Below, one piece after another: positions 23,610 to 26,559 of a DNA stretch of 64,000 bases. Source of the DNA: Sedimentisphaerales bacterium (lineage in GTDB: Bacteria > Planctomycetota > Phycisphaerae > Sedimentisphaerales > SM23-30); the NCBI GenBank assembly GCA_028281535.1, contig JANQJS010000002.1, positions 62,001-126,000 of the forward strand, written 5' to 3'. The translations under genes and the position numbers were made by a program. The notes beneath the pieces were generated by a model, which saw only the letters and a list, made by a program, of their open reading frames with translations, did no database searches and was not told the origin of the DNA. Numbering within the stretch: position 1 is the stretch's first letter; each line of letters begins with the position of its first letter.

Positions 23610-24440
23610 ATGAAGACAATTCAAATTGGTAACGGATCCACGACGCATTTTAATATCGGAGATCGCAATAAGCTTGTACTCATGGCAGGACCTTGTGTGA
23701 TCGAATCAAAAGAAATGTGTTTTCAAATTGCAGAAACATTGATAAAGCTTTGTGAGAAGTTGGATATCCATTATGTTTTCAAGGCCAGTTTTGATAAAGC
23801 CAATCGTAGCAGCATGGAAAGTTTTCGCGGGCCGGGCATTATTGAAGGCATTGATATTCTCGATCAAGTGAAAAAACAGTTTAAGGTTCCAGTGTTATCT
23901 GATATCCATTTGCCTGAACAAGCGGCACCAGCCTCTGAAGTATTGGACATTATTCAGATTCCTGCCTTTTTAGCCAGACAGACCGATTTGGTAGCCGCGG
24001 CAGCGCAGACCAGTTCCTGTGTGCAAATTAAAAAAGCACAGTTCATGGCACCTTGGGATATTAAAAATGTGATCAATAAAATCACTCATTTTGGTAATGA
24101 AAATATTCTTCTGGTCGAACGTGGCGTGAGTTTTGGTTACAATCGCTTGGTATGTGATATGACCTCAATTCCAGAAATGCAGAGTTTGGGATATCCCGCG
24201 ATTATGGATGCGACGCATGCAACACAAACCCCTAGCGGTTTAGGTGGCCAGTCAGGTGGCTCGCCCGATTTTGGAAAAGTTCTCGCGCGTTCAGCGACCG
24301 CCGCAGGTGCTGACGGTCTCTTCATTGAAACGCATCCCAATCCAAGTGAAGCACTCTCGGATGCCACAAGTATGATTCCATTAAACGAAATGGAAGCTCT
24401 GTTAACGCAATGTCGAGATATCTTTAATTGTTTGAAGTAG
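23610..24440 (+). CDS. kdsA: 3-deoxy-8-phosphooctulonate synthase (KDO8P synthase)
   Basis: KdsA joins phosphoenolpyruvate and arabinose 5-phosphate to make KDO 8-phosphate for lipopolysaccharide. The 276-residue protein has LMAGPCVIES at 25-34, FKASFDKANRSS near 57-68, RGPGI near 73, DIHLPEQA near 98 and IQIPAFLARQTDL near 113-125. The later GGQSGGSPDF segment and the IETHPNPSEALSD end are also canonical. Together with the GT9 gene it indicates a lipopolysaccharide-bearing outer membrane. GGTTGGA precedes the ATG. A REP-type hairpin pair follows the stop codon directly. Confidence 0.97.
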   Translation: MKTIQIGNGSTTHFNIGDRNKLVLMAGPCVIESKEMCFQIAETLIKLCEKLDIHYVFKASFDKANRSSMESFRGPGIIEGIDILDQVKKQFKVPVLSDIHLPEQAAPASEVLDIIQIPAFLARQTDLVAAAAQTSSCVQIKKAQFMAPWDIKNVINKITHFGNENILLVERGVSFGYNRLVCDMTSIPEMQSLGYPAIMDATHATQTPSGLGGQSGGSPDFGKVLARSATAAGADGLFIETHPNPSEALSDATSMIPLNEMEALLTQCRDIFNCLK

Positions 24441-24505
24441 GCCGGGCAGCCTCTGTCCGGCGATTATTTGTATGAACTGCCATGTAGAGGCTGCCTGGAC
24501 TACTT
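24438..24505. repeat. Inverted REP pair (REPIN-like), also possible kdsA terminator
   Basis: The left unit at 24438-24462 (GTAGGCCGGGCAG...CTGTCCGGC) is itself a hairpin. A second, inverted and more worn unit at about 24486-24505 ends in CTGCCTGGACTAC. The two arms match over about 16 of 20 positions, so the whole can fold into one long hairpin. It overlaps the kdsA stop codon and lies just 3' of the RAYT transposase gene. Confidence 0.75.
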
Positions 24506-24508
24506 GGT

Positions 24509-25081
24509 TTATTCTCCAGCTTGACTAATTTTTTCGATGAAATCAGGGACGGCGCCAGAATCTTTGTTGTTGCATTTACAGTACCAATCATTTTTATACA
24601 CGCCTTGTTTAGCCCATTTGTGAAATGTTGAATGAGACCATAGGTGTGGACATGTGACTAATCCATGCTTAGCAGGATTGTAATGAATGTATTTCATGTG
24701 ATTTTCAAAATCTTCTCTATCGCGAATTAAATGTTCCCAAAAACGTGGTTGCCAAACAGGTTCATTCTTTTTGGTAGGTCGGGCAGCCTCTGCCCGGCAA
24801 TTCTTGTATTGATTCCAATGGATCGTAAAACGACGTTTAATCATATTCCATCGTAAGGAAAAGTTGTCGTCGTTCTCAGGCATTTGCCAAATGCAGTGTA
24901 GGTGGTCAGGTAATAATACCATGCCGATTGTTTCGAAGGGGTGACGGCTATTTACCCATTGAATTGATTCGCGTAAGAGTTTACGGGCCTGTTCGTTGGA
25001 AAATATTTTCTTTCGTTTATATGTAACGACCGTGAAGAAATAGGTGCCGTGCTTTCGGTATAATCTTTTATAATCGGACAT
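24509..25081 (-). CDS. REP-associated tyrosine transposase (RAYT, TnpA_REP)
   Basis: RAYTs are single-copy Y1 transposases related to IS200/IS605 enzymes that move REP hairpins. The 190-residue protein has the HUH metal site LLPDHLHCIWQ (His60, His62), the typical IKRRFT near 81-86, QPRFWEHLIRD at 111-121, and YIHYNPAKHGLV at 131-142 with the candidate catalytic tyrosine. Residues 94-103 (NCRAEAARPT) are encoded by a REP copy lying inside the reading frame, between IKRRFT and the WQPRFWEH block. The frame stays open, so the protein may still be made. REP copies also flank the gene on both sides. Confidence 0.9.
   Translation of the reverse strand: MSDYKRLYRKHGTYFFTVVTYKRKKIFSNEQARKLLRESIQWVNSRHPFETIGMVLLPDHLHCIWQMPENDDNFSLRWNMIKRRFTIHWNQYKNCRAEAARPTKKNEPVWQPRFWEHLIRDREDFENHMKYIHYNPAKHGLVTCPHLWSHSTFHKWAKQGVYKNDWYCKCNNKDSGAVPDFIEKISQAGE
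24774..24800. repeat. REP palindrome inside the RAYT gene
   Basis: GTAGGTCGGGCAG...CTGCCCGGCAA is the same element as the one at 25104-25130, in the opposite orientation, with 2 differences in 27 positions. It lies wholly inside the transposase gene and contributes about nine residues. Confidence 0.85.
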
Positions 25082-25103
25082 TTTGTGTTCTTGGGATATT
25101 TGA

Positions 25104-25130
25104 TTGCCGGGCAGTGGCTGCCCGGCCTAC
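25104..25130. repeat. REP palindrome upstream of RAYT
   Basis: TTGCCGGGCAG...CTGCCCGGCCTAC holds a perfect 9-bp stem (GCCGGGCAG with CTGCCCGGC) and a GTAG/CTAC tail, the layout of REP elements recognised by RAYTs. It begins immediately after the stop codon of the DUF2007 gene and is 23 bp before the RAYT start. Confidence 0.85.
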
Positions 25131-25463
25131 TTATGTTGGTTTTTGTGTTTGGCAATTCCAGCAGGCGGTGAATTGGGATTCGATGGAGTTTTCGCAGGCA
25201 GGACATTGCCAATTGGGCTGATCATCTTCGATTGTGTTTTCGTCGTTTGTTTTTCGTGATTCAAAATGTTCAACGATTTCTAAGGCTTTGTTGCGATCAA
25301 CTTCTGATACCCATACAGTTGGATAGGCTTCGCTAAAGGGAAGTTCGCCGCGAGCACTGAGTAGGTTGTCGCCTATCACTTCTGCTTTTATTCCCTGATT
25401 TTCGATAATATTATGGACAAAATAAGCGTCCATTAAATCTCGAGCCATATAGACTTTTTCCAT
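25131..25463 (-). CDS. DUF2007 protein with C-terminal zinc ribbon
   Basis: The start at 25463 is chosen because GAGGT lies 6 bases before this ATG and a good promoter lies just upstream. The 110-residue protein opens with a DUF2007-type ferredoxin-like domain (VYMARDLMDAYFVHNIIENQG at about 4-24, then AEVIGDNL and PTVWVSEVDRNKALEIVEHF). It closes with a CPAC...CWNC zinc ribbon at about 87-106. DUF2007 is called a putative signal-transducing domain by homology only, so function is open. The stop codon abuts a REP palindrome. Confidence 0.8.
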   Translation of the reverse strand: MEKVYMARDLMDAYFVHNIIENQGIKAEVIGDNLLSARGELPFSEAYPTVWVSEVDRNKALEIVEHFESRKTNDENTIEDDQPNWQCPACENSIESQFTACWNCQTQKPT

Positions 25464-25510
25464 GATATACCTCACAATCTCAAGTGTTAAAAATCCCTTT
25501 GCGTAAAGAT

Positions 25511-25539
25511 AATATACCAATATTTTTGAATTGCGTCAA
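25511..25539 (-). promoter_or_regulatory. Promoter of the DUF2007 gene
   Basis: On the minus strand TTGACG (25539-25534) and TATATT (25516-25511) are separated by 17 bases, giving a leader of about 40 bases before the ATG at 25463. Confidence 0.55.
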
Positions 25540-25718
25540 ACTGGAATGATGTGTCTGTTTCTGTATTGAAAGCAGGTACTTACAATCATAGCGTAATAAA
25601 AGAATGAGTGTGATCGCCCAGGAGTTATCTTTGTTATGATAATATGATTGTGTTATCTGATACCGTTTGCTAGAGTTTGAATATACGTTAGAAGGATTTT
25701 GAACGTGTCAATAGCAAG

Positions 25719-25743
25719 GGTTGGGTAGCTCTGGTTGCCCGGC
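25719..25743. repeat. Degenerate REP element
   Basis: GGGTTGGGTAGCTCTGG followed by TTGCCCGGCC keeps the right arm of the local REP; the left arm pairs only with G-U wobbles on the plus strand. It lies just downstream of the first globin gene and is followed by seven T residues on the plus strand. Confidence 0.5.
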
Positions 25744-25749
25744 CTTTTT

Positions 25750-26118
25750 TTATCGATTTAAAACATCATCTCTTAAAGATTCAATGCGTTCTTCTGCTTC
25801 TTGAATGAGTGGAGCATCAATGCCTATTTCTTGTAGAGTGCTGACCAAGTGTTCATCAATGGCATCGTAGTGTTCATCATTTAATCCTTTATCCTTGACC
25901 AGTTTTAAGTGGGCATCCCGCATCGTGGCTCCGTCGTAGTGAGGAGCTCCTCCAAAGGCAAATGTTAAGAAACGTCTTTGATGACCTCGTTGTAAAATCA
26001 TATCAATGTCAGTGAAAAAATGTTTGATGCGATCGTCCGCTAATACTTTTTTATAAAAAATATCGACGCAGGCTTTAACTGTTTTGTGGCCACCAATTCT
26101 GTCATACAAGCTACTCAT
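25750..26118 (-). CDS. Group 1 truncated hemoglobin (copy 1)
   Basis: A 122-residue 2-on-2 globin. Visible heme-pocket features are the B-helix FYKKVLADDR with Tyr22 (B10), the CD corner HFF at 33-35, the E-helix QRRFLTFAFGG near 47-57, and proximal His70 in RDAH. Such proteins bind oxygen or NO and often protect respiration from NO. It is about 60% identical and equal in length to the globin gene just upstream, so the two arose by tandem duplication. A strong terminator lies between them, and this copy has a poor ribosome site, so expression may differ. Confidence 0.93.
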   Translation of the reverse strand: MSSLYDRIGGHKTVKACVDIFYKKVLADDRIKHFFTDIDMILQRGHQRRFLTFAFGGAPHYDGATMRDAHLKLVKDKGLNDEHYDAIDEHLVSTLQEIGIDAPLIQEAEERIESLRDDVLNR

Positions 26119-26190: not shown

Positions 26191-26559
26191 TTATCGATTC
26201 AAAACTTCTTCACGGGTGGACTCTGCAATTTCGACAACTTCGCCGATAAGATCATCACCTACACCTAAATCTTTGAGGGTGTTGACAAGATTTTCGGCAA
26301 CGGCATTGAAGTGGTCATCGTTGAGTCCTTGCTCTTCGACAAGTTTTTTATGGGCCGCACGCATGGTTCTACCAGGATAGTCCGGTGACCCTCCAAACGC
26401 ATATGTTAGAAAGCGTTTTTGGTGACCTTTTTGTTTGACCATATCAATGTCATCAAAAAAGTGTTTGATACGATCATCTGCCAGGACTTTTTCATAAAAT
26501 TTTTCAACGGCCGCATCCACCGCGGCTTCTCCGCCAAGTCTTTCGTACAAGCTGCTCAT
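26191..26559 (-). CDS. Group 1 truncated hemoglobin (copy 2)
   Basis: The 122-residue sister of the gene at 25750-26118, aligning without gaps. It keeps the same pocket: FYEKVLADDR with Tyr22, HFF at 33-35, KRFLTYAFGG near 48-57 and proximal His70 in RAAH. GAAGGA gives a good ribosome site. It starts only 23 bp after the HEAT-repeat lipoprotein gene on the same strand, so the two are likely co-transcribed, ending at the hairpin downstream. Ligand (O2 or NO) cannot be told from sequence alone. Confidence 0.93.
   Translation of the reverse strand: MSSLYERLGGEAAVDAAVEKFYEKVLADDRIKHFFDDIDMVKQKGHQKRFLTYAFGGSPDYPGRTMRAAHKKLVEEQGLNDDHFNAVAENLVNTLKDLGVGDDLIGEVVEIAESTREEVLNR

Follow-up and report, generated by a model that had tools for sequence, protein, structure and literature searches.

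The window analysed here, a contiguous stretch of 64,000 nucleotides, contained a gene for a REP-associated tyrosine transposase (RAYT), with kdsA on one side and a DUF2007 gene on the other. Four REP copies were found inside 0.7 kb at this locus, on both flanks of the RAYT gene and within it. The features of the locus are as follows.

23610-24440, + strand: kdsA
24437-24461, + strand: REP, left half of a REPIN downstream of the RAYT gene (pattern match)
24479-24503, - strand: decayed REP that completes this REPIN on the right as the inverted partner (5 mismatches to the consensus)
24509-25081, - strand: RAYT gene, 190 aa (NF047646, Y1_Tnp, 4ER8)
24755-24822, - strand: variable loop of the RAYT, residues 87-109, between IKRRFT and WQPRFWEH, holding the REP-coded residues
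24774-24800, + strand: in-gene REP (24774-24798 in the 25-base scan), 0 mismatches to the family pattern
25106-25130, - strand: REP lying upstream of the start codon of the RAYT gene and directly adjoining the DUF2007 stop codon (pattern match)
25131-25520, - strand: DUF2007 gene

The product of the RAYT gene matched the NCBIfam equivalog NF047646 with 178.3 bits (curated cut-off, 80) and the Pfam Y1_Tnp domain. Its best match was Escherichia coli TnpA-REP (PDB 4ER8), both by sequence (E 5e-57) and by predicted fold (E 3e-17). The HUH motif and the tyrosine region were present, and residues H60, H62, Y131, and N135 were invariant (65 sequences; 4ER8 alignment). The assignment of a RAYT gene to the interval 24438-25750 in the original prediction was borne out by these matches. 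A protein search of the source genome revealed one RAYT of this type. For a second Y1_Tnp match in the same genome (L360), no exact core of either of the two REP families described below was found around the gene.

The in-gene REP corresponded to nucleotides 282-308 of the coding sequence, wholly within the reading frame, and encoded residues 94-103 (NCRAEAARPT) in frame, exactly as had been predicted. Its GTAG side was on the + strand, antisense to the RAYT gene. In single-strand folding, the GTAG was accompanied by a 9-bp stem with a 3-nt loop (-8.8 kcal/mol), in agreement with the definition of GTAG REPs, in which a 20-40 bp palindrome comes after the GTAG. The in-gene copy was a single REP and not a REPIN, while the pair on the kdsA side (24437-24503) was an inverted REPIN, as expected from the original prediction. 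In addition, the stop codon of kdsA was the TAG of the GTAG in the first REP (24437-24440), and the C-terminus of KdsA is thus set by a REP.

A scan of the whole window allowing up to 8 mismatches in 25 bases detected only the four sites of the locus, some of which, being palindromic, were matched on both strands; three simulated windows used as a control gave 0 sites. Chance similarity was ruled out by the 0 matches in 100 shuffles (pattern with 3 mismatches allowed) and by the copies found elsewhere in the genome. The predicted cluster of four REPs with none elsewhere in the window was thereby upheld, but the right limit given for it (25750) lies next to a half-REP-like arm at about 25733-25746 and not to a full copy. 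This arm (GGTTGCCCGGCCTTTTTTT) was followed by a T run (25733-25750), and may represent a decayed REP copy or else a terminator.

A genome-wide search for the 27-base element, which had been proposed together with the original prediction, revealed that the family is also present outside the window. About 21 REP or REPIN copies, as counted by reading the match list of the pattern search, were found in the 4.44-Mb genome (99% complete), 4 at the locus and about 17 elsewhere. Five REPINs were identified including 24437-24503, i.e., four away from the RAYT gene. The family consensus was GTAGGCCGGGCAGCCTCTGCCCGGCAAT, from which the in-gene copy differed at one base. Among the inspected copies, that in the RAYT gene was the only one with a convincing location within a genuine gene; each of the remaining copies was intergenic or touched an ORF end or a doubtful ORF.

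The RAYT was then aligned with other RAYTs. Its nearest homologues, including L068, L212, L364, and L365, were 54-56% identical. Their loops resembled FTKSWLACGGRDVPVSPSRIKRGERGVWQ (e.g., GGRDVPVSPSR) and contained no AEAARP, and the REPs flanking their genes (GTAGGGTGCGAT..ATCGCACC, e.g., GTAGGGTGCGATGAATCGCACC) differed from that of the window. No homologue without this REP was found to carry the same residues. On this sequence comparison, residues 94-103 of the RAYT are indeed derived from the REP, because relatives with different flanking REPs lack them.

The loop between FT and WQ comprised 27 residues in the RAYT of the window vs. 29 in its nearest relatives, and a longer compared segment comprised 43 residues vs. 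a modal 45 in about 100 RAYTs. A clean 27-bp insertion was therefore rejected, as it would add 9 residues while the loop is shorter by 2. The shorter loop indicates that the REP replaced older loop sequence, including the S-x-S-R motif common in the relatives, or that a deletion came after its arrival. No RAYT more than 56% identical was found, so that the state before the event was not directly seen. It had been predicted that the REP was either an insertion into a tolerated loop or a REP that became part of the protein; the tolerated loop and the REP-derived residues stand, whereas simple insertion does not.

The loop was highly variable in length and sequence among the homologues, and E. 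coli TnpA-REP lacked most of it (17 profile positions gapped in the 4ER8 alignment). In the AlphaFold model of the RAYT (mean pLDDT, 91), confidence dipped only at the loop and the termini, with 77-80 at residues 91-110 vs. approximately 97 in the core. The best explanation for these alignment and model data is that the loop tolerates the REP, being probably dispensable for folding and catalysis.

To place the in-gene REP among other RAYT genes, a survey of 261, later 268, distinct RAYT genes was performed, which combined a comparison of each coding sequence with the flanks of the same gene and a search for hairpins tagged with GTAG or CTAC. A REP of the own genome was found in the same loop in six of the 268 genes, namely that of the window (L010 in the survey and the tree) and five others; the sample was a convenience one (the sequences that best matched either the RAYT of the window or a consensus, most of them being from Planctomycetota), and decayed in-gene REPs and those with no copy within 1.5 kb are missed, so this fraction is not a rate for RAYTs in general. 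L016 was from the same order as the window and L334 and L352 from the same class, while L109 was from a Nitrospirota MAG and L099 from a deltaproteobacterial/Myxococcota MAG. The corresponding peptides are as follows.

L109: SYEMVGTAHPTESR
L099: GLAGTAHPTKSR
L334: QEVGGAHPTPSR
L352: TKMVGSAHPTASR
L016: HPVGKNLPTLRISQSR

In whole-genome searches, each in-gene REP belonged to the REP population of its own genome with a matching hairpin-loop flavour (ACC in G494, ACT in G526, TGT/TGC in G774 and G775, and an identical second copy in G014). All six had the CTAC end 3' on the coding strand, i.e., the same orientation, which is also the usual one of the downstream flanking REPs (112:30). The site and the frame were the same in L109, L099, L334, and L352; the position differed in L010, and both position and frame in L016. 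By manual counts, the loop length was changed by -2 residues in the window RAYT, approximately +5 in L334, and +8 in L016, and was unchanged in L352 relative to L327.

The loop accounted for about 12% of the coding sequence and held six of the eight in-gene REPs detected (p 6e-5; 0.0024 when independent events were counted). Both others were located at a C-terminus, which was truncated in L189 and frameshifted in L282; in L189 (G424:C155, near locus position 1920), the RAYT was cut off by the REP directly after NPV. According to our own arithmetic from the survey counts, the density of strict REP-like hairpins per kb was roughly 2 in the flanks (300 bp), about 0.3 in the loop, and about 0.02 in the remaining coding sequence, the last value being near the shuffled expectation. 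An in-gene hairpin in L253 was not regarded as a REP, since flanking copies were absent and codon shuffles gave approximately 1.9 such hairpins per set, indicating chance. L275 and L347 contained AEAA or AARP in a sequence search alone, and no REP was detected there in the survey scan. In L045 (G409:C43), the sister of L109 and L099, GGTGGGCAATAGC / GGTGGGCAAT was observed at the same loop site, with 10 bases matching the REP flavour of its own genome; it is possible, although only suggested by this similarity, that GGTGGGCAAT is a decayed in-gene REP. Separately, pieces of the 5' or 3' end of the RAYT gene were duplicated in the flanks of L059, L040, L088, L144, and L012, which suggests repeated partial copying of gene ends.

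The tree (INDEPENDENCE) was built without the loop columns. It required at least four gains of an in-gene REP: in the window RAYT, in L016, in L109 with L099, and in L334 with L352. L334 and L352 could represent one event (support 68/66). In AU tests, a clade of all six genes was rejected (p-AU 5e-36), as was a clade of L109, L099, L334, and L352 (p 2e-57). A clade of L010 and L016 was also rejected, with a modest p of 0.025 that is weakened most by the fact that the tested groups were named after the tree had been inspected. A REP was gained independently at least four times in RAYT lineages, and since the AU tests reject the one-clade trees, descent of all six from one ancient in-gene REP was discarded.

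We consider it probable that a REP of the RAYT's own family entered the RAYT gene, replaced loop codons, and has persisted because it is tolerated, and that this process recurred at least four times. REPs accumulate around RAYT genes, so that arrivals inside the gene would be frequent. A REP of the resident family would then enter the gene of its own RAYT and replace approximately 10-12 codons of a hypervariable surface loop, and selection on the enzyme would retain only REPs that are in frame in this dispensable loop, where the residues they encode may be neutral. Beyond the identity, frame, loop location, recurrence, and independence of the REPs, which come directly from the comparisons above, delivery would have occurred by RAYT-mediated local hopping and not by another recombination route; placement of the in-gene REP by the RAYT enzyme itself is plausible. 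Two observations fit this explanation less well. The net shortening of the loop by 2 residues counts against it, since simple insertion of a REP is not expected to leave such a footprint, and the common orientation of all six REPs, together with the frame and exact site shared by four, is only partly predicted by pure tolerance.

A possible alternative, which concerns the delivery step only and to which we give less credence, is that gene conversion or template switching, as forms of ordinary recombination, copied the REP in from a flanking REP without RAYT catalysis. Replacement without lengthening, as in the window RAYT relative to its nearest relatives, favours recombination or a later deletion, and the loop of L352 was as long as that of its relative L327; donor REPs were available within 400 bp. 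However, the loops of relatives contained no REP-like sequence to prime homologous exchange, so that the first arrival would need illegitimate joining, and the loop of L016 was longer by 8 residues, which is near a whole REP.

It has been reported from biochemistry on three other systems that RAYTs recognise GTAG and the hairpin (PMC8266576), and by analogy the enzyme of the window could in principle act on its own gene. The in-gene REP might accordingly be a working cis element: by binding or nicking the gene or transcript at this site, the RAYT would limit its own expression or copying, and this function would drive the repeated recruitment. The number of independent captures, the single orientation shared with the downstream flanking REPs, the intact or nearly intact palindromes with the flavour of current genomic REPs, and the stable folding of the hairpin on either strand are all in line with such a role, which we nevertheless regard as unlikely. 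In-gene REPs were rare in the survey, and since GTAG creates a stop codon in one of the three frames, their orientation is in part constrained. Between L109 and L099, four of the five four-fold sites in the REP codons were conserved vs. 18 of 38 in the rest of the gene, a difference that was not significant. Because of this rarity and the lack of demonstrable conservation at the DNA level, self-regulation is given little weight, and it is equally doubtful that the embedded hairpin serves as a self-recognition site (for self-regulation or self-targeting) that would lock the enzyme to its target both evolutionarily and physically.

Descent from one ancient REP-bearing RAYT, with in-gene REPs kept current by concerted evolution with the REPs of each genome, would account for the loop shared by all six, for the site and frame shared by L109, L099, L334, and L352, and for the possible relic in L045. 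It is improbable given the rejected one-clade trees, the absence of a REP from most loops examined, and the deviating positions in L010 and L016. Finally, an origin of the REP family from the RAYT loop sequence, and not the reverse, is very improbable, since beyond the shared sequence nothing speaks for it, the sequence is absent in homologues, and RAYT genes are normally flanked by REPs, even where there is no in-gene copy.

Intragenic REPs, RAYTs, REPtrons, and REPINs are already known. The locus resembles the REPtron of E. coli TnpA-REP (4ER8) in its enzyme family, the conserved HUH and tyrosine region, and GTAG REPs on both sides of the gene, but the E. coli enzyme has no REP-coded sequence in the segment corresponding to the loop. 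In-frame GTAG REPs have been described within coding genes such as uvrA and recB, as has the use of the TAG in GTAG as a stop codon, which kdsA exemplifies here (Di Nocera et al., 2013; PMC3733652), whereas the text of that study mentions neither REPs inside RAYT genes nor repeated capture by one loop. Rickettsia palindromic elements also become part of host proteins; unlike the GTAG REPs, they have CGTC at their ends, and repeats of this CGTC type show no association with genes for transposases (PMC3733652). The inverted REP pairs beside the RAYT gene and at four other places in the genome correspond to REPINs (Bertels and Rainey, 2011; PMC3116915), but the in-gene copy is a single REP and the copy number is low. 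In the main text of the papers searched, neither the presence of REPs within RAYT genes nor their repeated capture in a single loop was found to be reported, although a prior mention is possible.

The findings bear on the movement of REPs and on a possible action of RAYTs on nearby sequences. The in-gene REPs record, in frame, the arrival of a REP, according to which a REP can land in the gene of its own enzyme and replace sequence there, and the marked loop could be used for direct tests of REP delivery and self-recognition.

Several further observations were made. A second REP/REPIN family, GTAGGTCAGGCCATGCCTGAC, had several copies in genome G000 (e.g., C36:21888-21947, C51:53428-53526, and C10:49499-49523); it had 0 copies in the window, and no RAYT was identified for it. 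A search of viral contigs gave a single distant RAYT match. In the window, two adjacent and similar genes of 122 aa (25750-26118 and 26191-26559) were observed, which are probably a tandem duplication and, by inspection only, likely encode truncated-haemoglobin-like proteins.
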